This document shows, piece after piece, positions 7,764-32,552 of a DNA stretch of 64,000 nucleotides. Below the pieces are notes generated by a model, which ran no database searches, was not told the DNA's origin, and worked only from the letters and a program-made list of their open reading frames with translations. The DNA is from Alistipes sp. (GTDB lineage Bacteria > Bacteroidota > Bacteroidia > Bacteroidales > Rikenellaceae). The first letter of the stretch is position 1. Each line of letters begins with the position of its first letter. Made by a program: the position numbers and the translations under genes. The stretch is taken from NCBI GenBank assembly GCA_017483225.1, contig JAFULF010000002.1:1-64000 (forward strand), written 5' to 3'.

Positions 7764-8798
7764 ATGAAACAGACAATCGAGATAGAGAGTCACAGCCGTA
7801 TTGTGATTGGCGATGCCGTGCAGGTGCTCCCTGCGCTGCTGCCCGACAAGCGTATCATCGTGATAACAGACAGCAACGTGGACCGTCTGCACCACTCGCT
7901 CTTTGCCAAATATGACCACATAATCATCGGTCTTGGCGAGCAATCCAAGAACCTCGCAACCGTCGAGAGGCTCTACGCCGCACTGATGGAAAAGTCGGTT
8001 GAGCGCAACTGCTTCCTGCTTGGCATAGGTGGCGGAATCGTCACCGACATCACGGGATTCGTAGCCTCAACATATATGCGTGGCGTGGAGTTCGGATTCA
8101 TCTCCACTACCCTTCTCGGAGAGGTAGATGCTTCGGTAGGAGGCAAGAACGGAGTCAATGTCGGAGGCTACAAGAATATGGTGGGCACCATCACCCAGCC
8201 ACGCTTTGTCGTATGTGACCCGCACCTGCTAACCACCCTGTCGGACAGAGAGTTCCGTGCCGGACTTGCCGAGGTCGTGAAGTCCGCCATCATCGCCGAC
8301 CCGACACTCTTCTCGCTGCTCGAAGAGAGCAGCTTCGAGGCTCTGCGTCGTGACGAGGAGTTGCTGGGCCGCATCATCGCAGCCACGCTGCGTGTCAAGA
8401 CCTCGATTGTGGAGGCAGACGAGCGTGAGGGAGGCCTGCGCCGAGTGTTGAATTTGGGACATACGCCGGCACACGCCATCGAGAAGTGTTGCCGCAGCCA
8501 CAACCACGGCGAGGCGGTAGCGATAGGGCTCTGTATGGTCGCCGAGGCGGCTGCAAAGGCGGGCATAATGGCGAGCGAGGAGGCGGCACGAGTGAGGGCC
8601 CTGCTCCTCAGACTCGGCTTCGACATCGAGTTGCCGGCACCGCTGCCCGACCTGCTGAAAGCGATGCGCAAGGACAAGAAACGCAACGGCGGAGCTATAC
8701 ACCTGATAATTCCGGAGGCCATCGGCAAGGTACGGGATATGGAGCTGCCGTATGAGGATATGGATAGTTTTTTCACGTCTAACGAACACCAACACTGA
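7764..8798 (+). CDS. aroB: 3-Dehydroquinate synthase
   Basis: 344 residues. Converts DAHP to 3-dehydroquinate in the shikimate pathway, using NAD+ and a divalent metal, in the cytoplasm. The NAD-binding GGGIVTD motif is at 89-95, STTLLGEVDASVGGKNGVN follows, and the metal ligands are E170 (AEVVK), H233 (NLGHTPAHA) and H248 (NHGE). It ends in TGA, which shows that TGA is a normal stop in this genome. The HAD phosphatase starts 5 nt later. Confidence 0.96.
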   Translation: MKQTIEIESHSRIVIGDAVQVLPALLPDKRIIVITDSNVDRLHHSLFAKYDHIIIGLGEQSKNLATVERLYAALMEKSVERNCFLLGIGGGIVTDITGFVASTYMRGVEFGFISTTLLGEVDASVGGKNGVNVGGYKNMVGTITQPRFVVCDPHLLTTLSDREFRAGLAEVVKSAIIADPTLFSLLEESSFEALRRDEELLGRIIAATLRVKTSIVEADEREGGLRRVLNLGHTPAHAIEKCCRSHNHGEAVAIGLCMVAEAAAKAGIMASEEAARVRALLLRLGFDIELPAPLPDLLKAMRKDKKRNGGAIHLIIPEAIGKVRDMELPYEDMDSFFTSNEHQH

Positions 8799-28694: not shown

Positions 28695-28838
28695 ATGCAA
28701 AAAAACAAGCAGGCAGCCTACACGGCTCCAACGATTAGTTTTTGCAACATCTGCCTTGAAGCAGGTTTTGCTTTGAGTCTGCCGTCGAACACTATCGACG
28801 ACTGGACTCGTGACGAAAATGAAGTCAATTTCAACTAA
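28695..28838 (+). CDS. 47-residue small protein upstream of a surface lipoprotein
   Basis: ATG at 28695, stop TAA at 28836. The translation begins MQKNKQAAYTAPTISFCNIC and continues to a patch LEAGFALSLPSNTIDDW and an acidic end. It has no signal peptide. The Y-x-x-P near the start, then E-x-G-F and a following Ser, resemble short proteins that I recall as frequent in Bacteroidales next to fimbrillin-type genes, though I cannot name a family. It has two Cys (17, 20). It is 25 nt upstream of the fimbrillin-like gene and on the same strand, so the two are probably one transcript. Function unknown; a leader or translation-coupled role is possible. Confidence 0.6.
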   Translation: MQKNKQAAYTAPTISFCNICLEAGFALSLPSNTIDDWTRDENEVNFN

Positions 28839-28863: not shown

Positions 28864-31671
28864 ATGAAAAAGTCAATTCTCTCTTTGGGTTTGATGCTGG
28901 TGGCATTGACCCTTACAAACTGTACACAGAACGAGGAGTTCGACGCAACTCCTGAACTCGGCGGTGGCGCATTCGAGCTCTACACCGACATCGACGCAAC
29001 CCGTACCGCTAACGACGGCGCACTCGGCACAGACTGGGTATCGGGCGACGCTCTCAACGTATTCCACGTAGAGAAAGACCAGACTGCTTATGTTTCTGAC
29101 GGTCAGTTCAGCATCGCAGAGGCTGACGTGGCAACCGGTCGCTTTACCGGCGAGTTGGGTGCTGCTCTGGATGCAGCGAAGTCTTACGACTGGTTTGCAT
29201 TCTACCCTTACAGCAAGCACATCACTACCCCTGCAAACACCTCCGCAGGCTACTCCTATATTGGCGGTCGTTCCGACAAGGCTCAGACACAGACCGGCAA
29301 CAGCAATATGGAGCACATCGCCGGCACAAACTACCCTCTCTATGGTAGCGCAAAGGGCGTGAACGGAAACAGCGTTCCTGTGTTGAAGATGAAGCACGCT
29401 TCGGCATTGGTTGAGGTTAGAGTTACCAACGGCCTGACCGAGCCTCTGACCGTTACCGGCGTATCGCTGACCACTCCTGAGACTATTCAGGGAGGTTTCT
29501 ACATCGACTTCTCGGGAGAGACTCCACAGTTCGCAGATTACACTTACGTATCTACTACGGCTTCGTTGTCGGTTGCTAACGGCGAGGAGATTGCTGTCGG
29601 CGCAAGCGCAACCTTCTACTTCGCAATTAAGCCTTGCGAGATTGCCGCAGGTGACTCTCTAGACCTCTCCGTATCGGGCTACACCGCAAGCGGTAACGGC
29701 GAGCACGCAGTAAGCCTCGACCTTACCAGCGAGGTTCTCTTCGAGGCAGGTGTTATCAAGACTCTGAACGTAACCTACACCACTCCGGTTGAGGTTGTTG
29801 AGCCTGAGACCTGGTCGCTCGTTTCTCTGGTTTCGGAGATTAAGGAGGGTACTTATGTAATCCTTACCAAGAATGCAGACTCCGGCGCTATCTCTTACCT
29901 GGTTAACACTACAACAAGTGCGGCTCCGCTCCAAGCAACTACATCTGCTTTGGATTGTACAACTGCTACGGTTTCCACAAATCAGGTAACCGACGAGATG
30001 CGTTGGACATTCACCGGCACCGCTGCTGCTATGAAGATTACCAATACCGAGGGTAGCTATCTCTATGCTACGAACACCAACAATGGTATGCGTGTTGGCA
30101 CAACCGAGGACACTTGGGCTATTACTACAAGCAAGGGTAACACCGCAGCATTCGCACTGAAAGATTCGGCACAGAGCCGTTACTTGACTGCTTACCAAAC
30201 CGGCCACTGGCGTTGTTATACCTCCGAATATGGTGCAACATCAAGCCAGAATAGTGAGATTTATCTCTACTATCTCGGCACAATTGAGCGCACCCCTGTT
30301 CTGAGCGTTGAGAACACCGCTATCACAGATGTTCACGCTAACGGCGTTGAGGGCGCAACACTTCCTGTTACCGCTGCAAACCTCACTTCGGAGGTGGCTG
30401 TAACTTACGACCAGACCGTCGTGACATCGGCTACTTACGCTGATGGCAAGGTTACCTATACCGTTGCCGCAAACGAGGGCGACGCTCGTGAGGGTTGGAT
30501 TAAGCTCACTTCCGGCACTTTGGAGGTTACAGTAACCGTTTCGCAGAACAAGGTAATCACTGCCAAGACATTGCCTTACACCGAGCCTTTCGCAACATCT
30601 ATCGGAAGTTTTGATATTAACAACGTAAATCTTGGTTCGTTGAGTAGCATATGGTCGCAGGATTCAAATTATAAATGTATGGTAGCAAGTGGATATGGTG
30701 GTGCTGCTAACAACGAGGCTTGGTTGGTATCTCCTACTATTGACCTCACATCTGCGACAAGTCCTATCCTCTCATTCGATCACGCAATGGGATACACTAC
30801 CGGAAATGACCAGGAATACTGCTCCGTATGGATTAAAGAGGAGGGTGGTGAATATGTTAAGGTATCTATACCGGAAGCATATCCTACAAACTTCTCATTC
30901 GTAACTTCCGGAGACATCTCCCTCAAAGACTATGTAGGAAAGAAGGTTGTAATCGGATTTAAGTACGTCAAGTTAACTGATGAAAGCACCGTTGCCCCTA
31001 AGTGGGAGATCCAAAACTTCGCCGTTGAGGATCGTAAGTTCAACCAGTCTATCTCATTCACAAGCGGCTCATTGGATGCTGTTATGGGCGAGGCTGTTAC
31101 CGGCCTGACCGTTGAGGGTGCAAAGACGTCTGTAACCTATACCTCTTCTAACGAGAGCGTTGCTACCGTAGATTCAGCTACCGGTGCTATCACACTTGTT
31201 GGCGTAGGTAACACTACCATCACCGCAACAGCAGCCGAGAGCGACGAGTACGCATCTGCAACCGCAGAGTACACCCTTGTAGTTGCTGAGGCAGGTACAA
31301 GTAGCACCACCGTTACCCTCAACTTGAGCGAGTATTTGAGTGGCAATGTTGCAGACACAACAAAGCAGTGTGGCGATTTCACACTCTCCTTTAAGAAGGT
31401 TAATAGCAACACTTCTAACTGGAATAGTGGCGGACACCTTCGTCTCTACAAGAGCGACATCATGACTATCGACGGCGGTAGCAAGGTTATCTCGAAGATT
31501 GTAATCGAGACTACCAGTAGCAGCTATACTGGTGGCTTCACTTGCGATTCAGGTAGCGGTAGCTATTCAGGTAATACATACACCTGGATTGGTTCTGCGT
31601 CTTCGGTTGCTTTGACCGCTGCCGGTTCGCAGGCTCGTTTCAGCAGCATCGACATCACTTACACAGAATGA
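28864..31671 (+). CDS. Fimbrillin-like/BACON/Ig-like surface lipoprotein, ends at in-frame TGA before a nuclease
   Basis: 935 residues. Lipoprotein signal with Cys at residue 20 (LTNC), so likely outer-membrane anchored. Regions: fimbrillin-like N terminus (about 21-300, with TRTAN...WVSGDALNVF), a beta region (about 315-475), BACON-like (about 478-565), choice-of-anchor J-like beta sandwich (about 568-728), Big_2-type Ig fold (about 732-810) and a further beta domain (about 815-935). Codons favour T-ending forms more than the neighbours, compatible with high expression. The TGA is followed in the same frame by a Gly/Thr-rich linker and an endonuclease, so the natural product may be longer. 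Role: surface adhesion or substrate contact is inferred from the domains. Confidence 0.82.
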   Translation: MKKSILSLGLMLVALTLTNCTQNEEFDATPELGGGAFELYTDIDATRTANDGALGTDWVSGDALNVFHVEKDQTAYVSDGQFSIAEADVATGRFTGELGAALDAAKSYDWFAFYPYSKHITTPANTSAGYSYIGGRSDKAQTQTGNSNMEHIAGTNYPLYGSAKGVNGNSVPVLKMKHASALVEVRVTNGLTEPLTVTGVSLTTPETIQGGFYIDFSGETPQFADYTYVSTTASLSVANGEEIAVGASATFYFAIKPCEIAAGDSLDLSVSGYTASGNGEHAVSLDLTSEVLFEAGVIKTLNVTYTTPVEVVEPETWSLVSLVSEIKEGTYVILTKNADSGAISYLVNTTTSAAPLQATTSALDCTTATVSTNQVTDEMRWTFTGTAAAMKITNTEGSYLYATNTNNGMRVGTTEDTWAITTSKGNTAAFALKDSAQSRYLTAYQTGHWRCYTSEYGATSSQNSEIYLYYLGTIERTPVLSVENTAITDVHANGVEGATLPVTAANLTSEVAVTYDQTVVTSATYADGKVTYTVAANEGDAREGWIKLTSGTLEVTVTVSQNKVITAKTLPYTEPFATSIGSFDINNVNLGSLSSIWSQDSNYKCMVASGYGGAANNEAWLVSPTIDLTSATSPILSFDHAMGYTTGNDQEYCSVWIKEEGGEYVKVSIPEAYPTNFSFVTSGDISLKDYVGKKVVIGFKYVKLTDESTVAPKWEIQNFAVEDRKFNQSISFTSGSLDAVMGEAVTGLTVEGAKTSVTYTSSNESVATVDSATGAITLVGVGNTTITATAAESDEYASATAEYTLVVAEAGTSSTTVTLNLSEYLSGNVADTTKQCGDFTLSFKKVNSNTSNWNSGGHLRLYKSDIMTIDGGSKVISKIVIETTSSSYTGGFTCDSGSGSYSGNTYTWIGSASSVALTAAGSQARFSSIDITYTE

Positions 31672-31746
31672 GATGCATCCGGTGGTAGCACCGGAGGTGG
31701 AGGTACCACAACCGTAACGGCGGCTCTGCCGAGAACTTGGGCAGAG

Positions 31747-32499
31747 TTGCCGGCTGCAAGAAGTGGCGCAGACTACGAGGTCTGCGCCCACGAGCAGCTC
31801 CCGTCGGATAATACGTTGCGCAACTACTCCTACTGCTACGACAATGCGAATCATTGCGCACGTTGGGTAGCCTATCCGTTACACTCGTGCTACCTCGGCT
31901 CGGCAACACGTTCCGACTCGGAGGTGTGGGAGTACGACCCTTGTTGCATAGATAACAGCAAAGAGCCTATGCTATACAAATCGTACTATCAGCAGGGCGG
32001 AGGCTCGACAAACAGCCACGACCGTGGGCATCAGTTGCCGTTTGCCGACCGCAAGGCATCGGTGGAGGATGGCAAGACCACCTTCTACTTTACCAATATG
32101 ACACCGCAACTCGGTACGCTCAACCAAAACTCTTGGGCGACATTGGAGGGGGAGGTGCGCAATATGATATGCTCCGACACCCTCTACGTAGTTACGGGAG
32201 CGCACTTCGACGGCTCAACGCCTGACTACGCCTACGACGACAGAGGCTACGGCAAGGCGTGCCCCGTACCAACCCACTACTACAAGGTGCTGCTGCGCAC
32301 CAAGAGTGGCAACACGGGCAAGCGGGTGCACAACTGCTCGGCAGAGGAGTTGAAGTGCATAGGCTACTGGGTAAAGCACGACGGCACATCAGCCATCCAG
32401 ACCAAGAGCGTAGCGGAGATAGAGGCATTGACGGGATTTACCTTCTTCGCCAACGTGCCAAATGCTCCAAAGAGCACATACAGCACCTCGGAGTGGTAA
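31747..32499 (+). CDS. DNA/RNA non-specific endonuclease domain, in frame with the preceding surface protein
   Basis: The open frame begins right after the TGA at 31669 and has no ATG; TTG at 31747 is the first start-like codon but lies within conserved sequence, after a linker of Gly, Ser and Thr. Nuclease motif DRGH is present with catalytic H95 (counted from the TTG), followed by LTNM-like FTNMTPQ and LNQNSWATLE (metal-ligand Asn about 126). These are the hallmarks of the NUC (beta-beta-alpha metal) family, which cuts DNA and RNA outside the cell. Five Cys pairs suggest secretion through the upstream signal peptide. Alone it would lack export signals, so it is best read as the C-terminal domain of the preceding protein, now split by a nonsense codon, a readthrough site or a sequencing error. 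Confidence 0.75.
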   Translation: MPAARSGADYEVCAHEQLPSDNTLRNYSYCYDNANHCARWVAYPLHSCYLGSATRSDSEVWEYDPCCIDNSKEPMLYKSYYQQGGGSTNSHDRGHQLPFADRKASVEDGKTTFYFTNMTPQLGTLNQNSWATLEGEVRNMICSDTLYVVTGAHFDGSTPDYAYDDRGYGKACPVPTHYYKVLLRTKSGNTGKRVHNCSAEELKCIGYWVKHDGTSAIQTKSVAEIEALTGFTFFANVPNAPKSTYSTSEW

Positions 32500-32518
32500 A
32501 ATACCTCCAATCAGACAA

Positions 32519-32552
32519 ACACCTCACACAACAACGTGTGGGGTGTTTTTTT
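32519..32552 (+). terminator. Terminator after the nuclease
   Basis: ACACCTCACAC (32519-32529) pairs with GTGTGGGGTGT (32536-32546) with one G-U pair, followed by a T tract to 32552. A run of nine G starts at 32555. Confidence 0.8.

Follow-up and report, generated by a model that had tools for sequence, protein, structure and literature searches.

A 64,000-nucleotide stretch of DNA from Alistipes sp. (assembly GCA_017483225.1, contig JAFULF010000002.1, positions 1 to 64,000; the window) carries a long open reading frame (ORF) for a lipoprotein, here called the stalk. The frame closes at a TGA and then stays open through an endonuclease domain. Is this a damaged gene, a pair of genes, or a single gene whose stop codon is meant to be crossed? 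The original prediction, made from the letters of the window, had placed nonsense mutation, programmed readthrough and sequence error side by side. Our analysis supports the second of these, through the conservation of the stop, a conserved RNA structure 3′ of it and its position at the natural end of the stalk. We conclude that the locus is very probably a single gene in which UGA readthrough is programmed, because this reading accounts together for the constant stop codon, the linker, the RNA element and an open frame under selection.

The arrangement described in the original prediction was borne out by the sequence, including the Gly/Ser/Thr-rich linker and the nuclease behind it (Table 1). 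Past the TGA, 275 codons are open in the stalk frame (31672-32496, beginning DASGGSTGGGGTTT) and are followed by a TAA at 32497-32499; the stalk of 935 codons, the stop and this extension span 1211 codons in total. The absence of a good start between the two parts likewise held: the first start-like codon past the TGA in the stalk frame is a TTG at 31747, and since it sits inside the conserved WAELP motif that opens the nuclease core, no start codon precedes that core. On the + strand, no terminator-like site was listed between the stalk and the nuclease in a consensus scan, which is not proof and which found 7 sites against a chance expectation of 4.1. A single transcript is therefore likely to carry both parts.

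The piece behind the stop is an Endonuclease_NS domain (PF01223, E 3.5e-37, residues 48-264), with its DRGH motif at 32020-32031. Solved chains that match its profile bear the names nuclease, extracellular endonuclease, endonuclease G and EXOG. Residues R118-G119-H120, N142 and E159, to which we presume a catalytic role, are invariant across 10 aligned rows. The ratio of nonsynonymous to synonymous substitution rates (dN/dS) past the TGA was 0.09-0.21 in nine of the twelve pairs tried, all nine with at least 68% identity (L154/L155/L158 three ways, L153/L154, L163/L171/L168 three ways, L151/L159 and window/L133). More distant pairs gave 0.26 (window/L151) and 0.39 (L213/L214), and the pair window/L142 was not computable owing to saturation. 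These ratios indicate that the frame past the TGA is under purifying selection.

The nuclease piece was searched in 101 genomes, two nuclease profiles (A1 and A2) in all 180 Alistipes genomes, and a named collection was searched as well (best 80 of 292 matches); the DNA upstream of the nuclease was read for a layout consisting of a long upstream frame, a stop, a linker and the nuclease. Among a first set of 80 loci, 11 have the layout (ten by script filter and L133 by eye), 67 do not and 2 are cut by contig ends. A further 59 regions yielded 28 with the layout, 2 of them already counted, and 31 without. Adding the window, L213 and L214, there are at least 40 distinct loci in 40 genomes. The stop is TGA at 40/40 of these loci, which are not independent of each other, and never TAA or TAG; among ordinary long ORFs of three sampled genomes, TGA closes 102/480. 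The 14 loci then known require four changes of state when placed on a tree of 86 nuclease rows. When 213 loci were scanned for long ORFs followed by a linker-like frame, 23 rows were returned, of which 21 (repeats included) lie at the readthrough locus, all with TGA, and 2 are chance rows, one with TGA and one with TAG. The linker scan of further stretches returned 7 rows, 3 of them at the readthrough locus and 4 by chance (2 TGA, 1 TAG, 1 TAA). When 295 Bacteroidales genomes were searched with the second nuclease profile, matches were found in 11, the window genome included; of the other Bacteroidales loci, ten were read and all have their own start (L409 was not scored). In genome G037, a stalk runs off the end of contig C184 and a nuclease piece starts near the end of contig C69; the two are probably the same locus broken by assembly.

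The stalk of the window has a lipoprotein signal peptide with the lipobox LTNC and Cys20. A Big_2 domain at residues 749-793 is the only Pfam match above the cut-off there. The label fimbrillin-like comes from the original prediction; fimbrillin Pfam models gave no match in the 11 stalks scanned (the window and ten others). A lipobox, as recognized by a loose regular expression, is present in 34/34 uncut upstream ORFs; 6 more are truncated at contig ends. Where a relative of the stalk is not followed by a nuclease (e.g., L035, L039, L040, L041 and L042), its frame ends in TAA or TAG and has no linker; some of these relatives have just one domain in common with the stalk. These plain relatives end where the TGA sits, and the short product therefore looks like a whole protein, the TGA apparently marking where the stalk naturally terminates. 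Relatives in which both domains are joined, which the original prediction had proposed to look for, were also found (e.g., L070, L083, L331 and L332): here lipoprotein and nuclease form one stop-free frame, and L083 is a paralogue within the window genome. Together with the lipoboxes, these sequences support the cell-surface nuclease architecture that had been proposed.

Between the near relatives L154 and L155, nuclease identity is 94% and identity over the first 311-314 stalk residues is 65%, while the remainder of the stalk cannot be aligned. As judged from such alignments, domains ahead of the stop appear to have been exchanged in L154, L155 and L158 while the TGA was kept. Across these three loci, the nucleases are 88-94% identical and the stalk N-termini are similar; the C-terminal parts are unalignable in two of the three pairs.

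A predicted RNA fold, a feature not noted in the original prediction, stands directly behind the stop. In the first 14 loci, the mean folding z-score against dinucleotide shuffles drops sharply at the TGA and not in the preceding 150 nucleotides. Over the first 100 nucleotides of these loci, the mean z was -2.7 against shuffles that keep both the protein and the codon usage; control sites inside the nuclease gave no signal at +120 to +480 (four of five) and a weaker one at +600. A 60-nucleotide window of -27 kcal/mol or below lies within the first 120 nucleotides past the TGA in 39/40 loci, and codon-preserving shuffles for all 40 gave a mean z of -2.39, with p≤0.05 in 26/40. The position of the fold is tied to the TGA, not to the protein motif WAELP. 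Where WAELP is far from the TGA (L133, L151, L159, L213 and L214), the hairpin is still near the TGA, and among 69 other nuclease genes z fell below -3 at WAELP in only 2 (L180 and L084) and -28 kcal/mol was reached in 6. Both L084 and L180 are joined, stop-free lipoprotein-nuclease genes, yet each has a strong fold (z below -3) at WAELP. Elsewhere, five ordinary stops, all TAG, are likewise followed by an open frame and a strong fold; they were considered as further cases and rejected, two being directly followed by ATG and three by linker-less frames.

In 20 loci, the fold is a single element that begins 5 nucleotides past the TGA and runs in the order GGGU, a GUGG-type stem, a GGGAGG-type inner stem and then their complements. 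Across these 20 aligned loci its length is 42, 45 or 48 nucleotides and 95.6% of cells are paired, a proportion that falls to 50-56% when one arm is slid. Cells changed on both sides number 29 versus 9.2 in shuffles (0/500); pairs with a double change (5) and further pair types (9) do not exceed the shuffles. A covariance model of the element, R1, was built without the TGA and the spacer. It found 21 matches in 180 genomes, one per genome and all at the readthrough locus, in a large search whose strict filters can miss weak matches. The matches comprise the 20 seeds and one new locus (L334 in genome G210), which shares the layout and has identical spacing. The stop-free lipoprotein-nuclease genes (e.g., L070, L083, L331 and L332) gave no R1 match, and the element matches no Rfam family at or above the threshold of that family.

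UGA is otherwise a normal stop in these genomes, as originally stated. It ends the ORF at 7764-8798, previously noted as aroB, and closes 22/165 sampled long ORFs in the window genome (stalk gene included), 16/113 in G030 and 65/203 in G054. Genome-wide recoding of UGA had been suggested by the apparent depletion of TGA in the window (2 TGA among 37 ORFs judged real) and is ruled out by these larger samples together with release factor 2 (RF2), which scored over the cut-off in 25/25 Alistipes genomes and in 38/41 genomes overall. Damage to RF2 was also considered and rejected, as the two stops in prfB of the window genome sit at the classic frameshift site. A CTTTGA frameshift site occurs in prfB of L253 (G000:C24) and L260 (G006:C56); in other Alistipes genomes a single frame without interruption matches the prfB profile from its position 1 or 2 onward. 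This distribution suggests that the prfB frameshift was lost within the genus. No tRNA-Sec scored over the cut-off in 37 Alistipes genomes or in 20 genomes with the locus, and no SelB did so in 21 Alistipes genomes. None of the 36 typed tRNAs of the window genome has the anticodon UCA or otherwise reads UGA, in a list that has gaps, the genome being about 90% complete and the list holding no Ala or Ile tRNA. Because RF2 is present, no tRNA-Sec or SelB was found over the cut-off and no UCA tRNA was found, reading of the UGA by a near-cognate tRNA would be the likeliest route. The near-cognate tRNA that usually reads UGA is tRNA-Trp. The base following the TGA is never C (0/40, versus 27/102 for ordinary TGA stops); we place no weight on this since the next codon is constrained by the protein.

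We propose that most ribosomes would halt at the UGA and release a complete surface lipoprotein, the stalk. The 3′ RNA hairpin, positioned where the mRNA enters the terminating ribosome, would disfavor release, and a near-cognate tRNA, by analogy probably tRNA-Trp, would read the UGA in a fraction of passages. Translation would then continue through a Gly/Ser/Pro linker into the nucleic-acid endonuclease, and a minority of the surface lipoproteins would end up with a nuclease at the far end. Display of the nuclease on this minority of copies is the likely purpose: it could serve to degrade extracellular DNA or RNA and to set the dose of a risky enzyme, with feeding on DNA, biofilm, competition and defence as candidate uses.

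Several of our results weigh against readthrough. A shared frame is part of the definition of the layout. Beyond codon composition the fold is not significant at every locus: p is above 0.05 in 14/40 loci, and for the window itself it is borderline at 0.059, though the fold is strong by energy. L333 lacks a strong fold (-19.4), the sole exception among the 40. The covarying element is limited to 20-21 loci; R1 has no match in the window, whose hairpins, like those of the other loci outside this group, differ from the element in sequence. Finally, the base at -2 relative to the TGA is A in 40/40 loci versus 208/480 ordinary ORFs, and this candidate recoding signal was rejected: A is also found before the stop in 7/7 hand-picked plain stalk relatives and is therefore a trait of stalks.

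Further adverse points belong to an alternative in which termination is complete, the nuclease is made as a separate protein by reinitiation or internal initiation in an operon, and the hairpin is an ordinary termination structure. Stable hairpins after stops are described as common in bacteria in one study, where they are proposed to counter reinitiation irrespective of the stop codon (PMC7518266), and the ribosome termination structure described there is, like ours, a stable hairpin directly past a bacterial stop. In our own material, the folds at 41/474 ordinary stops are as strong as the weakest fold among the first 14 loci; -27 kcal/mol is reached at 23% of ordinary stops in G054, 12% in G000 and 10% in G030. 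Some ATG, GTG or TTG precedes the nuclease core in 20/40 loci, and an in-frame ATG does so in 6/40; in all six, an additional domain of roughly 100 codons separates the linker from the nuclease. Against separate synthesis, no in-frame ATG lies ahead of the core in 34/40 loci and no ATG, GTG or TTG in 20/40, the window among them, whereas 31/31 nuclease regions without the layout have an in-frame ATG there. A lone nuclease would also have no visible signal peptide, the linker is of the fusion type, and TAA and TAG are never used as the stop; and unlike the termination structure as that excerpt presents it, the Alistipes locus uses UGA only and its frame continues under selection. We consider separate synthesis improbable.

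Still less probable, in our view, is an in-frame bypass in which the ribosome hops over the stop, or over the stop and the hairpin, leaving the UGA undecoded. A stop followed by a hairpin resembles the take-off layout of T4 gene 60 as given in the section consulted of a review (PMC8211752). Yet the hairpin region is open in frame in the 40 loci, and in the 20 aligned loci the length of the element changes by threes, as would a translated sequence. Dedicated decoding of the UGA, as selenocysteine or as a new amino acid with its own tRNA, would fit a UGA-only stop with a hairpin a few nucleotides behind it, which is the layout of the bacterial selenocysteine insertion sequence (SECIS); the searches for tRNA-Sec, SelB and a UGA-reading tRNA described above, with the stated gaps in the tRNA list, speak against it and make it very improbable. 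Nonsense mutation, pseudogene formation or an assembly error, suggested by the raw look of one genome only, has a close to negligible chance of explaining the same in-frame TGA in 40 distinct genomes with purifying selection behind it.

Programmed readthrough might also be part of a broader scheme, which we put forward tentatively and as a whole. In this doubtful but possible extension, the UGA and the RNA element would form a dedicated Alistipes recoding switch that sets the share of nuclease-bearing lipoproteins and perhaps adjusts it to growth state or to the supply of release factors; the RNA element may be read by a trans-acting factor; and the stop, hairpin and linker would make up a portable joint, with nucleases swapped on its downstream side and stalk domains on its upstream side.

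The features of the locus are collected in Table 1. The stalk gene is immediately preceded, on the same strand, by an ORF of 47 residues at 28695-28838 (MQKNKQAAYTAPTISFCNICLEAGFALSLPSNTIDDWTRDENEVNFN). The locus adjoins valS both in the window genome and in G030 (L072); valS is 91% identical between the two, and the nuclease pieces are just 53% identical despite this common neighbor.

Table 1. Positions within the window of the features of the stalk-nuclease locus.
Feature	Position	Strand	Basis or remark
Stalk ORF, 935 residues, ATG start	28864..31668, TGA next	+	ORF listing; product if the stop is obeyed
In-frame TGA closing the stalk, proposed recoding site	31669..31671	+	sequence; TGA in 40/40 loci
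Gly/Ser/Thr-rich linker, 22 codons, stalk frame, no ATG/GTG/TTG	31672..31737	+	sequence
Proximal RNA hairpin, 7 base pairs, 4-nucleotide loop, 6 nucleotides past the TGA	31678..31695	+	minimum-free-energy fold, predicted
Distal RNA hairpin, 13-base-pair stem, arms 31718-31730 / 31740-31752	31718..31752	+	predicted fold
Endonuclease_NS domain with DRGH (His 32029-32031), then TAA	31738..32499	+	profile, alignment
Intrinsic-terminator-like site, begins 18 nucleotides past the nuclease stop	32517..32548	+	consensus scan

No report of this locus was found in the open-licence literature, a coverage outside which lie most subscription journals and all preprints. If confirmed, the locus would offer a bacterial model of structured readthrough and would show termination serving as the control point for two isoforms of a surface enzyme. 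It also carries a warning, as gene finders that obey stops cut such genes in two. The isolate Alistipes montrealensis strain kh20, which carries the locus (L142), makes readthrough directly testable.

Among known systems, the A1 protein of phage Qbeta arises from the leaky UGA of the coat gene. It shares with the proposed product bacterial UGA readthrough that yields a minor, C-terminally extended surface protein; it differs in belonging to an RNA phage, whereas the Alistipes locus represents a family of cellular genes whose structured 3′ element is conserved. The CS3 pili gene of enterotoxigenic Escherichia coli contains an in-frame amber codon and is thus another bacterial surface-fibre gene with an in-frame stop. 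There the codon is UAG, and we know of no enzyme extension, whereas the Alistipes locus has UGA and an enzyme extension. Closer at hand, the stop-free lipoprotein-nuclease proteins (L070, L083, L331 and L332) have the same lipoprotein start, linker and Endonuclease_NS domain and differ in being encoded by one uninterrupted frame. In bacterial selenoproteins, a UGA has a SECIS hairpin directly behind it. This likeness in layout, for which we refer to the relevant part of a review (PMC8211752), is set against the Alistipes genomes tested, which had no tRNA-Sec or SelB over the cut-off, and against the position of the UGA between domains.

Stop codon readthrough is described, in the excerpts on which we draw, for the gag-pol stop of murine leukaemia virus, where a 3′ pseudoknot is stimulatory (PMC5009743), and for the opal stop of alphaviruses (PMC13274604). 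As portrayed there, these cases share with the Alistipes locus a stop codon and an in-frame extension, and they differ in concerning viruses of eukaryotes, with other structures and ribosomes. The Alistipes RNA element would resemble such viral readthrough stimulators in place and kind. A 2007 survey of conserved interrupted frames in 328 complete prokaryotic genomes recorded, in the portion of its text cited here, selenocysteine and pyrrolysine proteins and "almost no novel candidates" (PMC1914089). On present evidence, the Alistipes locus is a case of neither amino acid and would represent a conserved bacterial chromosomal family, free of any trace of a selenocysteine system, whose UGA is evidently kept to be crossed.

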